Source: Quillaja saponaria (taxonomy: Eukaryota; Streptophyta; Magnoliopsida; Fabales; Quillajaceae). Taken from it: DNA of 64,000 bases. Positions 2,670-48,491 of the stretch are shown here, one piece after another. Numbering within the stretch: the stretch's first letter is position 1; every line of letters begins with the position of its first letter. Under the pieces are notes generated by a model that was not told the DNA's origin, searched no databases, and saw only the letters and a program-made list of their open reading frames with translations. The DNA lies in NCBI GenBank assembly GCA_029379385.1, contig CM055605.1, positions 2,081,001 to 2,145,000 of the forward strand, given 5' to 3'. A program made the translations under genes and the position numbers.

Positions 2670-3596
2670 ATGGACATGGAAATCACAGAAGAATTTGTTG
2701 GGTCTTCTACTGAAAAAGACATGACCCAAATCGCTAAAGGCAAGCGCACCAAGCGGCAAAGGCCTTTTTCCCCTGACGGGATTGAAATTGCCACCACCAA
2801 TTACACCACCACCATGACTACTTCTACCTCATCAAGTGCTTCTGCCGGTGGCCGCGGCGGTGATTATGGGTCGTTTTCTTCTCCAACAATTTCTTATGAG
2901 AGTACTGAGGAAGAGGAAGACATGGCTAATTGTTTGATGCTTTTGGCTCAAGGTGATGGTCCAAAGCAATTTGATAATAATAAGGTACAAAAGTTTAGCA
3001 GCAGAAGATTTGCTGATATTGCCACCACTGTTACATCCACCAAAACTTGTTTCTATGTGTATGAGTGCAAAACATGTAACCGAACATTTCCTTCATTTCA
3101 AGCACTTGGTGGGCACAGGGCAAGTCACAAAAGACCGAAAACTGCGGCTGAGGAGAAAAAACCTCCAACACCACCGCCGCCGTCATCTACCAATATGGAT
3201 GGTTTGGAGGAATCTAGGAAAACCCAGATCAGATTTAGTCCTCAAATTTCAATTCAATTATTGGGTGGGAATAAAGTGTTGAATAGTAGTAACAAGGTGA
3301 AAATCCATGAGTGTTCAATATGTGGGTCGGAGTTTTCATCTGGTCAAGCCTTGGGTGGACATATGAGACGGCATAGAGCTGCAACAAGCACTGGTCATCA
3401 AATGGTGGGCATGAATATTGACACAAGTGCTCCTGCTACTGCCACCACCATGGAAATCAAGCCAAGGAATATTCTACAATTGGATCTTAATCTTCCAGCA
3501 CCGGAAGACGATCACCGGGATTCCAAATTCCAATTCAACCCAACAAAACAATCAATGGTCTTGTCTGCTCCGGCCTTGGTGGATTGCCATTATTAG
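2670..3596 (+). CDS. ZAT5-like two-finger C2H2 (Q-type) zinc-finger repressor
   Basis: Intronless gene, 308 residues from the ATG at 2670 (a second ATG follows two codons later). Visible parts, in order: a basic B-box/NLS-like motif (KGKRTKRQR) about 25 residues in; an acidic L-box-like stretch (EEEEDMANCLMLLAQG); a first finger YECKTCNRTF...QALGGHRASH; a second finger HECSICGSEF...QALGGHMRRH; and a C-terminal EAR repression motif LDLNLPAPED. Both fingers carry the plant-specific QALGGH core. The arrangement is that of the C1-2i subclass (ZAT5/ZAT14 group): nuclear factors that bind DNA and recruit TOPLESS-type corepressors, often in stress or wounding responses. The target genes here are unknown. 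No lesion was found. Confidence 0.9.
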   Translation: MDMEITEEFVGSSTEKDMTQIAKGKRTKRQRPFSPDGIEIATTNYTTTMTTSTSSSASAGGRGGDYGSFSSPTISYESTEEEEDMANCLMLLAQGDGPKQFDNNKVQKFSSRRFADIATTVTSTKTCFYVYECKTCNRTFPSFQALGGHRASHKRPKTAAEEKKPPTPPPPSSTNMDGLEESRKTQIRFSPQISIQLLGGNKVLNSSNKVKIHECSICGSEFSSGQALGGHMRRHRAATSTGHQMVGMNIDTSAPATATTMEIKPRNILQLDLNLPAPEDDHRDSKFQFNPTKQSMVLSAPALVDCHY

Positions 3597-12012: not shown

Positions 12013-13134
12013 ATGATTTCAAAGGCAAGCACAAGTACTTCTTGTTTTCCAACAAATGTTTCTCAAGGGATGCAGATGTTTTCTTTGGCTGATAATCATC
12101 ATCATGAAGATGTGATTCCGGTTTCATCGTCTTTCGAAGCAAACCCTGCTGCCTCAAATTCACACTCTACCTCCCTCCTCTACAATCTCTCTGTTCTTAA
12201 AGACAAGTTTCATGAGGTGCAATCACTAGTCAATATTCTTGTGTACCCAGATCAAAGCCTATCTGAGTCAACTTCCATAGCTGCAGCTACCATCAATTCC
12301 TTAATCCAAGAGATCATAGTGACAGCAACTTCAATGATGTTCACTTGCCAGCAGATGACTCTGATTGGTATCTCTTCAGGTAATAATACTAATAGATTAC
12401 CAACTCAAATGAACTTTAGCCAAAATAGAGGGCAGACTTCATTTTCTAGTGATCAAAATCAAGCCCTTGATTGGTTTGATCAAAACTATAGCACTAATAA
12501 TAATTGCAGTAACGTTAAAGATGATGATAATGATCCAAATGCTGTAGTCAGTGAAACCAACAATAAGAATGAAGGGTTTGAAAGGGTTAGTTCATCAAAA
12601 GATTGTGATATCATTGAGTTGGATGCTGCGGATTTGTTGGCTAAGTACACACATTATTGCCAAGTTTGTGGGAAAGGGTTTAAGCGTGATGCGAATTTGA
12701 GGATGCATATGAGAGCTCATGGGGATGAGTACAAGACTAATGCTGCATTAAGCAACCCCGTGAAGTTTAACAGTAATAGTTTTGGAAGCTTATTTGGTGC
12801 TGGAAACAAAGAAGGTGGCAACTGTTTGATGAAGTCCCCAAAGAAATATTCATGTCCACATGAAGGGTGTAGGTGGAATAGAAAGCATGTAAATTTCCAG
12901 CCATTGAAGTCTATGATTTGTGTGAAGAATCATTACAGGAGAAGCCATTGTCCCAAGATGTATATATGCAAGAGGTGCAATCAGAAGCAGTTCTCTGTGC
13001 TGTCTGATTTAAGGACACATGAGAAGCACTGTGGGGATGTCAAATGGGTGTGCTCGTGTGGTACTACATTTTCCAGGAAAGATAAGCTACTGGGTCATGT
13101 TGCTTTGTTCGTTGGTCATAGCCCCAGCAACTAG
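12013..13134 (+). CDS. STOP1-like C2H2 zinc-finger transcription factor
   Basis: Intronless gene, 373 residues from the ATG at 12013. The N-terminal half is low-complexity and Asn/Ser-rich with a helical segment. The C-terminal half carries the four-finger block typical of SENSITIVE TO PROTON RHIZOTOXICITY proteins: [42 protein letters not shown] with a following [56 protein letters not shown]. Family members control acid-soil and aluminium tolerance genes, but the smaller STOP2-type paralogues vary in role. The protein stops six residues after that last block (GHSPSN), while STOP1 itself has a longer tail. One C fewer in the CCCC at about 13126 would read [12 protein letters not shown] and extend it by 25 codons, so a 1-nt insertion at the end is possible. 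The rest is clean. Confidence 0.88.
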
Positions 13135-14333: not shown

Positions 14334-14768
14334 ATGGTGAAGGGCATGAAGAAGCCGGCTGAGAAGAAACCCGCAGACGAGAAAGTGACAGCAGAGAAGT
14401 CTCCGGTAGCCGCCGAGAAGAAGCCTCGCGCCGAGAAGAAAATACCGAAGGAAGGGGCCATTGACAAGAAGAAGAAGAGGACGAAGAAGAACGTAGAGAC
14501 ATACAAGATCTACATCTTCAAGGTTCTGAAGCAGGTTCACCCTGATATTGGTATATCCAGCAAAGCTATGGGTATCATGAACAGTTTCATCAATGACATT
14601 TTTGAGAAGCTTGCTCAAGAATCTGCGAGGCTTGCTCGCTACAACAAAAAGCCGACGATTACCTCTCGGGAAATACAAACTGCAGTGAGACTAGTTCTTC
14701 CCGGTGAGCTTGCCAAGCATGCTGTTTCTGAAGGGACTAAGGCTGTTACCAAGTTTACTAGCTCCTAG
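14334..14768 (+). CDS. Histone H2B, canonical
   Basis: Intronless gene, 144 residues, from ATG 14334 ([13 protein letters not shown]). A Lys/Ala/Glu-rich N-terminal tail of about 50 residues contains the plant AEKKP repeats. The histone fold follows: [25 protein letters not shown], then the helix with [21 protein letters not shown], then the C-terminal helix [25 protein letters not shown]. It packages DNA in the nucleosome as the H2A partner; the lysine in the conserved AVTKFTSS end is the usual ubiquitination site. No lesion. A short TATA-to-ATG distance and the absence of introns are usual for replication-dependent plant H2B genes. Confidence 0.96.
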
Positions 14769-27700: not shown

Positions 27701-30443
27701 ATAATAGCAAAAATTCTCCAAGAAAACCTGTCCACGAGCATAGTAAGCTACTTCAGTTCCATCTGGTAACACATCTTCCTCAAAAACTAACTTATGCAAC
27801 CGTAGATCCCTGTCAAAAGAAATGTATGCAAATGAAAGGGTAAGATTTCAGGTCGAATGTAATTTTGATTATCATATAATCAACAGTGGACAAAATAAAA
27901 TGCAACTAAATGGAAGATAACAGATTTGCATAATAAAACACTTACTTCCTAGTTAGTCTTCCCTTACTCTTACCCTGTGATGAGCTACCCTTCAACACAT
28001 TCGAAGGCAACTTTGGAGCCACCGCTGAATTTGGTGATCTAATATAGACAGCATCCATCAGAATTACAATAAAAGAGAAACACGGAATTTAGAGAGAAGG
28101 CCCATTAACTTGCATATTGCCTAAACATCATGTAACCAAGTAAGTGTCTGTAACAGGTTACCAGTATAAAATATTGAATATATATGTATAATCAAGAAGT
28201 CTTCAGAAACCCCATAAATATTTATACAAAAACATCATTATATTTTACATACAAGTGGCAGTAATGCAAATGGCAGGAAGGAAATGATTTGGTACAATAT
28301 GAACAACATATACAAGTTACATTCTATTCTTTTAACACCATACCTACTTTATGGTGCATATAAAAGTCAAAATTAGTTCAGATCGCAAGTTTACAATCAT
28401 TAAGTAGAAGACAGAAAATATACTCAGTATGGCATTCAATAGCATTTCAAAGCTTTACCAAATACTTAATTCTGGGAGCTTGATTTTACATATGGTTTGA
28501 ATGTTTTGCATCTAATGTACATGCTTTATGAATTTGCCAACACCATGTGTATTAGCATGTGCCATTTCATTAATTACAAACTTCAACTTCATGAATTTGC
28601 CTCCTAACAGTAGGATAGTTAAATTGTTTATTACAAATTATGATGTCTTAAGATTCATTTACTATGAGAATGATTTTTGATGAACGTTCACATGCCAAAA
28701 TCAAAAAATGAGGTACCAATTATTTTATAACTATACAAACACACATGGTAGTAACAAAAACAAATTCCAAAAAAATAAAATGAAAATAAGAAATTGTAGT
28801 AAAACATCAATCACAAATCATACCTTGTGCTATCACGAGTCTGAATAGGTCTAGGCTGAGACTCTGTTAAATCAATGCACGAATTACATAGTAGCACTGA
28901 TGAACCATTACCAGATTCAGTAATAGGCCCTAGTAAATCCATCAACATTCAATTTATACACTGTCAGGAAAAACCGTTCATGCATATGAACATTACAAAA
29001 TATCAAAAGTATGCAAAAGGAACCTTTGCAATTCAGACAGATGGCAGATTTCTTCATAGAAGAGCAACCAATGGCATTTCGGATAGCTTCCTCCAATATG
29101 TGCAATGGAGCAGTTAAACACAAATTCATGACATCACGGAGGGTGTTCCCATTCTCAAGGTATATATATTCGGGTGGACGTTTATTTGAACTTCCAGCAT
29201 GAAGCTCAAACACAGTGGGTGTGACAACCTGCATGTACAGTTAGGAAAAGCAACCAATAAGCAATTTATGTTTCACGTGAACAATTATGGGGTATGGAGA
29301 AGATGATAATTCAGAAATACATCTTGTAAACTACACTCACTTCGACTCCTCCACACATATCACAATAGCATTCTATCCCAGAGCCTCTAACCACTCCTTG
29401 GAGGCCTGTTTCCCCAGGCAGACGAACCTACAATTGGATGCATCATAATGATACTTCAAACAAAAGTTCAAATACTTCAGTGCAGATGGTATGTAAAAGG
29501 AATGCTATATAATACCTTCAAGCCCCGGACATACTTCACCCGTAGTCCCTCGAGAATACCACTGGCTAGAAGGTCTTTAAGCTTGGTAGGAAACGCCCTT
29601 AACATACTTTCTGAAATTTTCACGTCAGGGGGCGAGGTACTTAACTGGCTAGCCTCGCTATCAGGTTTAACACCATCCCCGTTTTTAACTGCTTTGACAC
29701 AAGTCTCTTCAACCTTGGGCGTCTCCACTTTTGGGGTCAATGTCGACCTAGTAAACCTGCCTAAGTGGCTTCTCGTATAATGAAGCCTCCACTTTAATTG
29801 AAACTGAGGATGTTCCACTAGTTCCTTCCTCCGCTGGAAGAGCTGTCTCTCCCTTCACATTCTTTAAATTCTCGTTAGTTAAGGACTTTTCAGAATCATT
29901 CTTATTTGCTTCTTCCTCCTTAGGCCTGTCTTCGCAAATGGGTTGCGCCATTTCATCCATTAATATCTCCCCCCTTGAAGAATCTACAATATTACTACAC
30001 TTGGGCTCATCATCGCTCACATTTCCCGCCACATCACTCTTCAGTTCCTCTTCACAAACAGGCATAATAGTCTCACCCTCATATTCCCTCTTCACCATTG
30101 ATTCTCCCACATGGTTTCTGGGCTCATCATCGCTAATAATATCCACTACATCACTTTTGGCCTCCTCTTCACTCATGACATCACCCATGCCGTCCGTAAT
30201 CCTCACCTCTTGGCCCTTCACCGCCACGTTAGCATCGTTCTTGGTCTTTTCCATACTCGAACTCTTCAGCCTCTTATTACCAGGACTCTCTGAAACCCCA
30301 TTCCGATTTTTGCTAGCCCGTGTCCGACCCAAAGACCCACAGATCTCAGATTGAACCTTCAAGGCGAATGCAAACTCGCGCTTCAGACCCGTCCTGACCC
30401 GAGATAAAACCACAAACTTCTCCGAATCCTTACCATTCGCCAT
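24752..30443 (-). CDS. IDM1-like PHD-finger / acetyltransferase-fold chromatin protein, one apparent 1-nt insertion
   Basis: Eighteen exons: 30443-29516, 29427-29341, 29228-29024, 28929-28824, 28038-27946, 27809-27728, 27644-27585, 27506-27454, 27330-27164, 26565-26355, 26250-26196, 26107-26051, 25949-25701, 25547-25483, 25398-25342, 25259-25166, 25058-24918, 24841-24752; 932 residues after removing one base. Order of parts: acidic N-terminal region; two CxxC-containing TIFY-binding-type domains (VKYVRGLK...[10 protein letters not shown], then [16 protein letters not shown]); a C4HC3 PHD finger ([21 protein letters not shown]); a second CxxC-rich part; and a C-terminal GNAT-like domain ([11 protein letters not shown]...[13 protein letters not shown]). 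It resembles At2g27980/IDM1 relatives, nuclear readers or acetyltransferase-fold coregulators. All splice phases agree. Near 29759 an extra base separates EKPLR from [12 protein letters not shown]; as written a stop follows four codons later. Confidence 0.88.
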
Positions 30444-32170: not shown

Positions 32171-33230
32171 TTCTTGTACTAGTCAAACGTTTGCACGGGT
32201 TATAACTTTCCAAATTCCTGATACGACCTACACAATAGTACGAAGCGTGAGCGAATATATTTGTTGGGTGCCCAAAAAAATTGTTTTCTTTTCAATTGTT
32301 TTTGAGGTTATACTTAAAGAGAATTGAACAATGTTTGTTTAAACATATATCTGATTGGTTCTTTTAAATTTATGTGCTGGCGGGAACGGATTTGGTTGTG
32401 CCACGTGGGAATTACCCAATTCCCTATTCTATTTTCTGAAAGAAAATAAAGAATAATACTTCCAAGTAATATTAATTAATAACCCTGTTATTCAAATTCA
32501 AATTAAACAATAAAATGGACATTGACTCCGTAATTTGTTTGAAATATGAGTTTTAGCCAGTCTTGTCTTGTCTTTTTTTATTTTTTTCTTAAGTATTTTT
32601 GAGTAAAACTTGAATTTAAGAATAATTGGGTGGAACTCGATAAAACTTTTCGGTATAAATTGTCTTTTTTATTTCTAAAATCTACATAATTCACTTCAGA
32701 AATTGCTCAAATAGAATATGGTGCACAGGTGCAGAACAGCTAATGTAGTAAAGCATTACAGCCGTGCCTTCACTTTCAAGTGTATAGAATTTTGGGTAGC
32801 CCTTGTTTTCGGCTATGTGCTGCTAAAAGTCCTGCACAGTTGGTGAGTTGGGTGCAGGGGTGTCATTTGGAAGGAGTTCTGAAACTGGGTTAGCTTTGTC
32901 AAAAAATTCTGCCGTGTGTCTACCATGCACCCTTGCTTCCATATTTTGTTTTTCAATCTGATGATGGTACCTCAAATTTATTAGAATACAAAAAAGTTCT
33001 TAATTTGCTTAATTCCCTCGTTACATCTGAAATTACAACCCCAAAAAGATATCAACCAAATACATAGTGGTCATGACTCTTTAAGCTAGCAAACCTTCAA
33101 CAACCTTTAGTAAAATACACTGCCTTTATAGAAGGTTGCATACAGACCAAGTCACAAAACAGACCAACACTAATCTATATATCAAATATCTAATGCTGAT
33201 GAAGAAACATTTAACTAAATATAAGGTACA

Positions 33231-33255
33231 TGCCAAAGGATTTGAAATTGCCCTG
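33231..33255 (-). promoter_or_regulatory. miR399 target-mimic site A (25 nt, 4-nt larger centre)
   Basis: Read on the minus strand: CAGGGCAA, seven central bases, then TCCTTTGGCA. The ten 3' bases pair perfectly with miR399 positions 1-10, and the eight 5' bases with positions 14-21. The centre is one base longer than in the usual 24-nt plant mimic. Confidence 0.8.
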
Positions 33256-33288
33256 TTTGAGAAACAGAACTTTGAGTAAACTGGTAAA

Positions 33289-33312
33289 TGCCAAAGGATT
33301 TATGCTGCCCTG
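33289..33312 (-). promoter_or_regulatory. miR399 target-mimic site B (24 nt, canonical length)
   Basis: Read on the minus strand: CAGGGCAG, six central bases, then TCCTTTGGCA. There is perfect pairing to miR399 positions 1-10, with one G:U at position 14, and a 3-nt excess in the centre as in IPS1. The flanks GAGAAACAGAA...TTTG are shared with site A, so the two arose by local tandem duplication. Confidence 0.8.
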
Positions 33313-33572
33313 TGGGGGAGAAACAGAATTTGTAATAATCAAAACCCATCTCTCCCAATTAAGAAACAAAATGAATAACCTTGTGCTTCAGGCTTCAGCC
33401 ACCTCCCACCTGTACAGACCAACCCACCAAGCCATAGATAACAAAATTTGATCAGTCTCATATGGTGGTAGGGGTGCTCAAGAACTGACTGACCAGCAGC
33501 TTGATGTAAGTAATTAACTCATGGAGGATTTGCTTTGTGAGAGATACAATATTTTGTGTGAACTGTGAAGTG

Positions 33573-33655
33573 CTTTATAAAGGAAAGGGCTTTAAAAAAA
33601 GGAGAGGTTCCTTCTCCAAAGGGTTTGTAATGCGCGCATCTTCCAAAGGATATGC
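33573..33655 (-). promoter_or_regulatory. Promoter of the IPS1-like RNA: TATA box and P1BS (PHR1-binding) site
   Basis: CTTTATAAAG at 33573-33582 is a TATA box readable on the minus strand. GGATATGC at 33648-33655 matches the P1BS consensus GNATATNC bound by PHR1-type factors and lies about 65 bp upstream of it. The combination predicts induction by phosphate starvation. Confidence 0.65.
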
Positions 33656-33699: not shown

Positions 33700-35255
33700 A
33701 CAATGACACATCTTTCTGCTGTACTTGTTAGTATTTTAGTTATTTCCCCAAACCTTTTGCCTTTCCTTAATTACTTACCAGCACTAGTCATATAATTCTT
33801 TTTTCTTTTTCTCTTTTTTTTTTTGGAGTGAGAAACAGAGGCAAAGAGCTGAAAATAAAAGACTAAACTGGGATCATTCCGAGTATAGAAAACATCTCGA
33901 AAATCATTACAAACTAAACTAAATGGGTCTAAGAAACCCATTAGGGACTAAGACCAATCTCATACTGTAGCAATACATTTACTATTCATATAGAAAAATG
34001 AAAGAAAAGGTGGCTTATATGAATATGGATAGATGGGGTGGAGAATTTGACATGTGCAAGTCACAAAATGAGGAATGGGTAAGGCTTTAGTCAGGCACTA
34101 AAGAGAGAATCTTTTGCAAAGGCATATACCTAAATTCTAACCATTCTGTGCTTTTGAAAAATTTGCACTTGGTAATCTTACTCGAACCACAGCTAATGCT
34201 AAGGAGCCTAGGAGTTCAACCTATGCGTAAGTTCCTACACAGAAGCTATTCCTCCACCTATGTTAATGAAAATGACATTTGAAACTTGAAAGGGTTGGGT
34301 TTGGAATAACTTGGAGATAAAGAAAGAATCAAAGAAACATAAAGAAAAAAGCTATTAATTACATAATTGAGTGATTAAATGGGCAACGTTCTGTCTATGA
34401 GTTAATGGCCAAAGTTTGAAATTTTAAAAAGCACTTTGTTTATTTAACAAGTATAACAAAGAAAATGTGGGTGACTATAGTTATATAATTTTCAGTGCAC
34501 TCACTGGATTTTATTTTTGGCCAAAAACACAATAGGTAGTGGCTTTCGTATTCCTTGCTGACAAAGCAAAGAACCCGTTAGAAACAAATTATATATTTCA
34601 AAAATAATTTTGCATTTGAAAGTGACTAAATACATTCAAGTTTCTGTCAAGACCAGGATGGAATCAAATTGATATATACTCTGTGTCTGTGGTGTGGTGG
34701 CATATTCCATTCTCGCTCCAGTAAAAAATTGCATTTACTAAATGAATTGAGCTTGGATTTAGGATGAACAATTAATTACTAAACATAGAGTTTAGTCCGG
34801 GTGCTGATGAAACCTTTCGTTCAGAAAAGTGTTTTGTGTCTGAGTTTCTCATTTTTCAATTCCTTTATTGTAGTTATAGTCTCATCGTTTGTATTAAAAA
34901 TTAAAAATTTGTTCACCAGAAGAAAGAAACGAAGAGGGCCGACGCACCGCTTTGTGACTTGTGCCTAGGCTTTGCCAGAACACAGCATCTTAGCCTTGCA
35001 CCTTTAACAACTATGAATGAATCAATGTAACATTCAAGTCTGAAGAAAAGAACAATCTCAAAACATGAATCCATTAGATGTCTTGAGTTTCAGACAAGAA
35101 ATCCCAAAAGAGAAAAGTGTCCTGATTAAAAAAGAACCCATGTAGAGGCCAAATGCTTATCTTATATTAGCTTACCTCAAGTCCCCAACAGATTAACTCC
35201 ATTGCTTACCCATTTTGAAGTTCCAAAATTCAGTACAAAAAATTAGCCATTTGAA
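33700..35255. other. Intergenic, no gene seen
   Basis: Upstream flank of the IPS1-like RNA and promoter side of the NHL gene. AT-rich, with a poly(T) near 33810. No other feature supported. Confidence 0.45.
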
Positions 35256-35868
35256 ATGGCTAATCCTCCTTCACAACCACAGCATCCACAAGCAGTCAGG
35301 CCAAGACACTCAAACCTACTTCGCTGTTTTGCTATAATCGTTCTAGCTGTGATTATCCTAGTGGGTATAGCAGTGCTCATCATCTGGCTAGTGGTCAAAC
35401 CCAAACACCTTGATTACACTATTGAAGATGCCTCAATCCAAAATTTCAACTTGACCAATGCCAATCACCTCTATGCCAATTTTTATTTTGCCATAAGAGC
35501 ACATAACCCCAATTCCAGAGTCTCTGTCTATTATGACAAAGTGGAAGTGTTTGTGGAATATGAGGATCAAACACTAGCAACTAGTGCAGTCCCACGACTT
35601 CAAACAGCCTCATAAGAATGTGACCAGGTTGGAGGTGAAGCTCGATGCTCAATCTGTAAACTTATATGGGTCAGTGCCTAAAGATTTAAGGCGCGAGAAA
35701 TCATCTGGTGGAATTGAATTGGATGTTTGGGTTAAGGCAAAGATAAGGTTCAAAGTGGGAGTGTGGAAGTCACGTCACCGTGTTATGAGGATCTACTGTT
35801 CCCCTGTGTTGGTGCATTTCTCTAAGTCCAAGGGTTTTGATAGAACCTACTGTGATGTTGAACTTTGA
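35256..35868 (+). CDS. NDR1/HIN1-like (LEA-2 / NHL) membrane protein, one apparent 1-nt insertion
   Basis: Intronless; 203 residues if one base is removed. A short Pro/Gln-rich cytoplasmic start (MANPPSQPQHPQ), one strong membrane segment at about residues 25-48 (FAIIVLAVIILVGIAVLIIW), then an extracytosolic LEA-2 domain with IQNFNLT, the NPN motif (IRAHNPNSRVSVYYD) and a C-terminal CSPVLVHF...DRTYCDVEL. NHL proteins sit in the plasma membrane, and several act in defence or abscission. At 35595 an extra C breaks the frame between TLATSAVP and DFKQPHKNVTRLEV; read as written, the protein ends at 35615 after 119 residues and loses most of the LEA-2 domain. Codon pattern and family motifs on both sides argue that the two halves are one gene. 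Confidence 0.82.
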
Positions 35869-45798: not shown

Positions 45799-46433
45799 CT
45801 AGTGTTGTTTGGACATATAGGTAGTGACAGCCTTTGTTCCCTCAGCAATTGCATGTCTCCCAAGCTCTCCAGGTAAGACCAACCTCACAGCCCCTTGAAT
45901 CTCTCTAGCCGATATCGTCAACCGCCTGGTGTAATTGGAAAGCCTTGCAGCCTCATTTGCTAGTCTCTCAAACATGTCACTCATCAAATTGTTGATTATA
46001 GTCATTGCCTTTGATGAAATTCCCATTTCTGGATGCACTTGCTTCAATACCTTATACACATACCTCTTATACCCTCCTTCACCACCAAACTCTAATTTTC
46101 TCTTCCCTCTCTTCCTCTTCTTCTTCTCACTCTGATCACCCACTTTTTCATCCACTTGTTTGGTTTGTCCCTTCTCCTTTCCCTTTCCTGGTTCAGATTC
46201 TGGGGCTTTGCCATTTTCGGCATTTTTTTTGTCTTCCTCTGTTTTCTCTTCAACAGGAATGCTCCTCATAACCTCTTCTGGTAAAGGAAGCACTTGTTCT
46301 GCTTCTTGCTGTTGGTTAGTGTCTTTGTTTTGTTGGGTTGGTCTTTTGCTGCTGCTGCTTCTTCCAACAACTGTAACTCGTACTGTTTCTTGGTGGTCTT
46401 GACCACCATTTTTTGTGAGCGTTTTGGAGCCAT
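45799..46433 (-). CDS. Divergent histone H2B with long charged tail (H2B.8-like), one apparent 1-nt deletion
   Basis: Intronless; 211 residues if one base is restored. ATG at 46433 ([15 protein letters not shown]). The frame then shifts to [17 protein letters not shown] and a long Glu/Lys-rich tail ([20 protein letters not shown]...[11 protein letters not shown]). The histone fold follows: [60 protein letters not shown]. An extended disordered tail and a divergent fold are the marks of the H2B.8 class, which in Arabidopsis compacts sperm and seed chromatin through phase separation. Without the missing base (near 46387) translation from the ATG stops in the tail; an internal start would still give the histone fold. 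A minus-strand TATA (46487-46496) lies about 60 bp upstream of the ATG. Confidence 0.83.
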
Positions 46434-47632: not shown

Positions 47633-48491
47633 TTAGGGGCCAAAAGGTGCCCTATGAGGTACACCTTTTCTTCTCCTTGAATTAGAATAAGACTGTGAGG
47701 ATGCAGATGTTTGACATGGCGTGTTTTGGTAAACTTGTTTTTTAATTATTCCTTCACGTAATTCTTCATCATCATCTTCTTCTTCTTCTATTTCTTCTAC
47801 TTGTTTTGTTGGCAATCTTCTTAGCATTCCTTTCCTTCTTCCCACTTCTTCTTCTTCGTCTTTCTTCGCGCTTAAGACAAAGCTCCCATTTCCATTCTTC
47901 TTTATTTCTGCAACCTAAGTTTAAAATACAAACAACCAATTTAATTATATAAATCAAAAACAAAACGAAAAAGAAAGAAAATGTAATCAAATTCATGAAG
48001 ATCACCAACCTTGCATCCTAATGAACAGAAACGAAGAGGGTCCAAGAGACTTCTTCCACAGGTTTCACACAAATGAGAAGTGGTTTTACCACCAGAAGGA
48101 TTAGTTTTAGGCTGAGGTCTCTCATTTAGAAAAACAACTCTAGCACTGTTAATCACATATGTCTGAACTCCAGTCATATCCAAAACTTTCTGAATCTCTG
48201 TCACCCTCACAACATCATGATAAGATGACCTTCTAATCTGCATATTTTACACAAAGATTGAATTTTAGGCACCAAAATTACAGAATTAAATAGAAAAATT
48301 AATTAATGAATACCCACTTGAATTACTTGGTGATCTTTGTGACATGATGATCTGCAATAAAAGCAGAAAGCAATTCCTTTGCAATCCAGACAATACATGT
48401 TGCATTCGTTTCTGGGAATATTGAAATGTGTTTGGCACATCGAGAAAAATGGTGTTGATAATAAGGATTCCAACCACGGTGGCACCAACAT
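47633..48491 (-). CDS. PLATZ zinc-binding transcription factor
   Basis: Three exons, 48491-48318, 48237-48010 and 47914-47633, give 227 residues from [12 protein letters not shown] leader exon further upstream (intron acceptor just before the ATG) could move the start. Diagnostic parts: [16 protein letters not shown], then [17 protein letters not shown] and [60 protein letters not shown]. The tail is rich in Arg and Glu ([16 protein letters not shown]). PLATZ proteins bind A/T-rich DNA and mostly repress transcription. Frame and splice sites are clean. It lies between the ATL57-like gene and SCPL51, as in Arabidopsis from memory (At2g27930). Confidence 0.94.

Follow-up and report, generated by a model that had tools for sequence, protein, structure and literature searches.

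The window analysed here, that is, the whole 64-kb stretch at positions 2081001-2145000 of contig C1 of the assembly (G000), carries on its minus strand two copies of a two-part sequence in which CAGGGCA is followed at a short distance by TCCTTTGGCA. The two parts lie at 33312-33306 and 33298-33289 in the first copy (site 1) and at 33255-33249 and 33240-33231 in the second (site 2), with gaps of 7 and 8 bases, respectively, after CAGGGCA. These are the same elements that the preliminary description of this DNA had given, on the same strand, as two copies of CAGGGCA(A/G) followed by 6 or 7 bases. The sites, together with the gene signals that surround them, are listed in Table 1.

Table 1. Features of the putative miR399 decoy locus, in coordinates of the window
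Feature	Position	Strand	Basis or remark
miR399 decoy site 1 (candidate), 24 nt	33289..33312	(-)	PvmiR399b pairing and duplex energy
miR399 decoy site 2 (candidate), 25 nt	33231..33255	(-)	PvmiR399b pairing and duplex energy
Spacer between sites, 33 nt	33256..33288	(-)	Length from coordinates
Two tandem units carrying the sites, offset 57-58 nt (TTCTGTTTCT...CAGGGCA...TCCTTTGGCAT.TACC)	33225..33336	(-)	Unit-to-unit alignment
Predicted non-coding transcript, ~590 nt	32956..33545	(-)	Start ~30 nt below TATA box, end ~21 nt past AATAAA; both inferred
TATA box TATAAA	33574..33579	(-)	Sequence letters
Poly(A) signal AATAAA	32977..32982	(-)	Sequence letters
P1BS-type element GCATATCC (consensus GNATATNC)	33648..33655	(-)	110 nt above predicted start
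Second P1BS-type element GTATATGC	34122..34129	(-)	584 nt above predicted start

Beside the putative decoy gene lies a LEA_2 gene (At1g08160-like; 35256-35865, plus strand), which encodes, letter for letter, residues 1-98 and the 79 C-terminal residues of a 177-residue Quillaja saponaria protein (P0001). The assignment of the DNA to Quillaja is drawn from this one protein. The reading frame of this gene is broken near 35591-35599, where a tblastn alignment of the paralogous protein P0002 shifts frame, and the P0001 model skips the stretch; the break may reflect a pseudogene or an assembly error. Farther away in the window are two core-histone genes (Pfam Histone; 14334-14765, plus strand, and 45799-46428, minus strand), about 31 kb apart, which on visual inspection are of H2B type; the N-terminal part of the second is long and charged. 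Also present are genes for a STOP2-like C2H2 zinc-finger protein (12013-13131, plus strand), whose family is associated with tolerance of acid soils and aluminium, for a second C2H2 zinc-finger protein (2670-3596, plus strand) and for a PLATZ transcription factor (47941-48246, minus strand), as well as an exon of a PHD-type gene that encodes a TDBD (Tify-binding) domain (28917-29240, minus strand).

We compared the occurrence of the site elements in the window with chance expectation. The seed half TCCTTTGGCA, with one mismatch or none, has 7 matches in the window against 5.2 expected, a number that was reached in 29 of 100 shuffles; two of these 7 are exact. The two-arm pattern GGGCA-N(4-12)-TCCTTTGG occurs on the two strands of the window at 2 places, both of them in the decoy locus, against an expectation of 0.02, and a count of two was reached in none of 100 window shuffles. 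Since the seed half alone is not above chance, it is the two-arm architecture and its doubling that carry the evidential weight. A pattern of the mature miR399 type had a single match in the window (0.36 expected), with 3 mismatches, and this match fell on the decoy site itself.

Pairing of the two sites was scored with the common bean miRNAs miR399a, b and e, the sequences of which are printed in PMC3645745. With PvmiR399b, both duplexes have their bulge after miRNA position 10 and contain 2 wobbles; the bulge is of 3 nt (AAA) at site 1, where there is 1 mismatch, and of 4 nt (CAAA) at site 2, where there is none. With a miR399b-type miRNA, positions 1-10 and 15-21 are free of mismatches at both sites. 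Both sites with PvmiR399b thus show the motif of the IPS1 class, about 23 nt in length, in which the two ends of miR399 are paired and an insertion lies opposite positions 10/11. Mismatches at sites 1 and 2 numbered 2 and 1 for PvmiR399a, and 3 and 2 for PvmiR399e; with these 2 miRNAs the scorer placed the bulge of site 1 after position 13 rather than 10. Duplex energies were -32.8 kcal/mol for site 1 and -32.9 kcal/mol for site 2, and the net energies remaining after the opening of local structure (33150-33400) were -19.8 and -20.9 kcal/mol. When both strands of the window were scanned with one miR399 in sliding 35-nt segments (step 5), the 7 best segments all lay on the two sites (-32.9 to -27.4 kcal/mol), and the next place scored -26.5 kcal/mol.

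The preliminary description had made its reading depend on pairing with miR399 at positions 1-10 and 14-21. With miR399 sequences from other plants, the first part of this expectation held throughout: positions 1-10 paired at both sites with each of the three bean miRNAs (6 of 6 combinations) and with each of five Arabidopsis miR399 (10 of 10). The second part held for some members of the family and not for others: the 3' half (15-21) is free of mismatches with miRNAs ending in ...UGCCCUG (bean a and b), has 1 mismatch with bean e, and is paired over a smaller number of bases with the three Arabidopsis miR399 that have other endings. A Quillaja miR399 ending in ...UUGCCCUG would support the target-mimic reading. 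The rules for endogenous target mimics (eTM) as worded in PMC5148581 call for perfect pairing at positions 2-8, three unpaired bases within positions 9-12 and at most 3 mismatches elsewhere. Paired with PvmiR399b, site 1 agrees with these rules; the three bean miRNAs give 0-2 mismatches at site 2, the 4-nt bulge of which is one base over the strict rule. In the experiments of PMC3121747, decoy activity was highest with bulges of 1-4 nt, and the bulge of site 2 falls inside that range.

Complementarity of both arms to miR399 is also what would be seen at ordinary cleavable target sites, such as those of PHO2 (UBC24) leaders, and the presence of more than one site has its parallel there as well: several miR399-complementary sites are described in a row in these leaders, five in common bean (PMC3645745) and six in barley (PMC4919326). 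PHO2 leader sites guide slicing, however, whereas each of the Quillaja sites has an insertion of 3 or 4 nt at the slicing position, and among 20 window frames (chosen pieces) that were scanned with Pfam none was a ubiquitin-conjugating enzyme. We therefore regard cleavable sites as a very improbable explanation, and decoy sites as the better one.

The TATAAA sequence leads one to expect a start near 33545, and between this start and the AATAAA signal and its downstream margin lies a predicted RNA of ~590 nt, a length that fits with the statement in PMC6508833 that IPS1 homologs are "consistently over 500 nt". On the transcript strand the longest ATG-to-stop frames are of 40 and 44 codons. The TATA box, the AATAAA and the lack of a long reading frame, all of which had been pointed out in the preliminary description, are thus borne out, and to them can be added a promoter signal that was absent from it, the P1BS-type element GCATATCC. 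The consensus GNATATNC is given as the PHR1 site, P1BS, in PMC3645745, and such elements are common to the Quillaja locus and the Arabidopsis IPS1 promoter, which is said in PMC4919326 to have two of them. P1BS is not enriched across the 64-kb window (19 occurrences, 14.8 expected); because the motif is common there, its position near the start is supportive rather than proof, and weak when taken alone. No long frame, a length (here predicted) of about 500 nt or more and a P1BS in the promoter, which are characteristics of the IPS1 class, are all found at the locus. Rfam, at its gathering threshold, gave no match in the window, which speaks neither for nor against this assignment. By their letters, a splice-like CAG/GTGGGA on the 5' side and a pyrimidine run with CAG/GG on the 3' side would bound a 100-nt intron at 33409-33310 (minus strand), just before site 1; site 1 would survive with or without removal of this candidate intron, because the joined ends would recreate CAGGGCA.

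Alignment of the two tandem units with each other showed that they share TTCTGTTTCT upstream and T.TACC downstream of the sites. All 17 of 17 arm bases are identical between the units, and the loop and flank letters and lengths differ. This is the pattern that would be expected from selection for pairing with a free centre, but we consider it weak, since few bases enter into this single comparison and the search had itself been made with the arms. The spacer sequence GUUCUGUUU can pair with AAACAGGGC, running into the 5' arm of site 2, in a predicted 9-bp hairpin with a CUC loop; the paired letters of this hairpin are not the same in the second genomic copy described below. A reading of the locus as a structured RNA was considered and found to be unsupported, the folding z-score being -0.28 with 36 of 100 shuffles folding as well. 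Nor are the two sites specially open, as their mean unpaired values were 0.33 and 0.40 against 0.39 overall.

With a 601-base query, the same genome (351.8-Mb assembly, 213 contigs) gave 2 DNA matches, the locus itself and a second copy on contig C4 (15313202-15312857; L003). Homology with the C4 copy spans only 33304-32956 of the window, from a point within site 1 to 21 nt beyond the AATAAA. The C4 copy is without promoter and 5' half. Within the aligned region the copies differ at 32 of 326 ungapped columns, and in addition by indels. At site 1, the C4 copy has kept 10 of 10 seed bases and lacks the 5' arm, and at site 2 it is whole except for one C-to-U change, which leaves a G:U pair. Slower evolution of the arms was not seen in the comparison of C1 with C4 (1 of 27 arm bases changed, against 31 of 299 other bases; Fisher p = 0.50). 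Because both seeds are present on both contigs, the doubling of the site predates the C4 copy, and the tandem pair, being older than that copy, is not an assembly artefact of the C1 locus.

When 88 kb of C4 surrounding the copy (L003-L011) were compared with the window by blastn (E 1e-8), 32956-33304 was the sole match, and for this reason the copy looks like a dispersed fragment and not a syntenic duplicate. A whole-genome-duplication partner at C4 is likewise unsupported, in that tblastn with the LEA proteins P0001 and P0002 found no LEA gene there. Truncation at the 5' side together with a stop at the expected poly(A) site fits a retrocopy, and the coincidence of the C4 end with the predicted poly(A) site hints at an origin from RNA. 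Of the other marks of retrocopies, neither an A-run nor a convincing target-site duplication was found at C4; one 7-mer is shared, which by our estimate is near chance.

The end of the C4 homology bears also on the possibility that the sites belong to a 5' untranslated exon of the downstream PHD-finger gene, and would act in cis in the leader of its mRNA. This gene is on the same strand, with its first long frame from about 30440 down, some 2.5 kb downstream (its Pfam PHD score of 21.8 bits is under the cut-off of 24, and that of the Tify-binding TDBD domain, 46.9, over the cut-off of 23.6). However, both the AATAAA and the breaking off of the C4 homology 21 nt beyond it suggest that transcription terminates there, and we think it most unlikely that the sites are part of such a leader. 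A silent relic of an IPS1 gene, in which the sites have remained and transcription or its control by phosphate has gone, deserves slightly more weight and is still improbable. Broken copies do exist in this genome, as is demonstrated by the C4 copy, from which the 5' arm of site 1 is missing along with the promoter and the 5' half; at the C1 locus, by contrast, the full set of TATA box, P1BS, two sites and AATAAA is in place, and the agreement of arm bases between the tandem units, weak as it is, also argues against decay.

In the aggregate, these observations support, at the level of sequence, the claim of the preliminary description that the locus is a target-mimic RNA gene of the IPS1/At4 type for miR399: pairing, place of the bulge, predicted length, lack of a long frame and P1BS all agree with it. 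We conclude that the plant, very probably Quillaja saponaria, has here, with a probability of roughly 0.9, a miR399 decoy gene belonging to the IPS1/At4/Mt4 (TPSI) class. Like IPS1, At4, Mt4/PDIL1 of Medicago, TPSI1 of tomato, Pv4 of bean and HvIPS1 of barley, it would specify a non-coding RNA of >500 nt (predicted here), and like the members of this class as described in PMC6508833, PMC3121747, PMC3645745 and PMC4919326 it pairs with both ends of miR399 around a bulge after position 10; the same descriptions note little conservation in the class outside of the miR399 site.

According to PMC3645745 and PMC3121747, PHR1 induces miR399 and the decoy together in phosphate shortage; PHO2 mRNA is cut by miR399, and the decoy binds miR399 uncut. 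The anatomy of the Quillaja locus fits every sequence-level step of this family mechanism. In phosphate shortage, PHR1-like factors at the P1BS would switch on the polyadenylated non-coding RNA of about 590 nt; each site would pair with both ends of miR399, and its 3- or 4-nt bulge opposite positions 10/11 would block slicing. miR399 would then be held by the decoy, or lost, and PHO2 mRNA would be spared. One RNA with two sites could hold two miR399-AGO1 complexes.

The function of the IPS1 family is known, and the natural tandem pair of sites appears to be the less ordinary part of the present locus. In contrast to the two sites, 33 nt apart, in Quillaja, a single site is described for IPS1 (PMC3121747), HvIPS1 (PMC4919326) and Pv4 (PMC3645745), these relatives being compared by description; also, the bulge of site 2 is 4 nt, as opposed to 3 in the IPS1 relatives. 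No two-site IPS1 is reported in the passages of open-access papers that were consulted, an absence that is weak at this limited coverage. A parallel to the pair is the artificial construct described in PMC9918958 as the short tandem target mimic (STTM), with two bulged decoy sites in tandem and a spacer between them. The Quillaja arrangement resembles STTM in its tandem bulged sites and spacer, and differs from it in being natural and in lying within an RNA of ~590 nt. According to the same source, the spacer of STTM has to be structured and no shorter than 48 nt, and one of 31 nt was weaker; the Quillaja spacer, at 33 nt, falls short of the former and is close to the latter. We suggest tentatively, and at somewhat less than even odds, that the natural two-site decoy loads two miR399-AGO1 complexes and titrates or destroys miR399 more strongly than single-site IPS1, as a natural counterpart of STTM.

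The locus adds to the known miR399 decoys one from a Fabales tree that stands outside the legumes proper. It is a gene of a sort that is invisible to protein-based annotation. If both sites work, the locus would be a natural instance of the tandem decoy that biotechnologists have had to construct, and would allow a direct comparison of one site with two in a native RNA.
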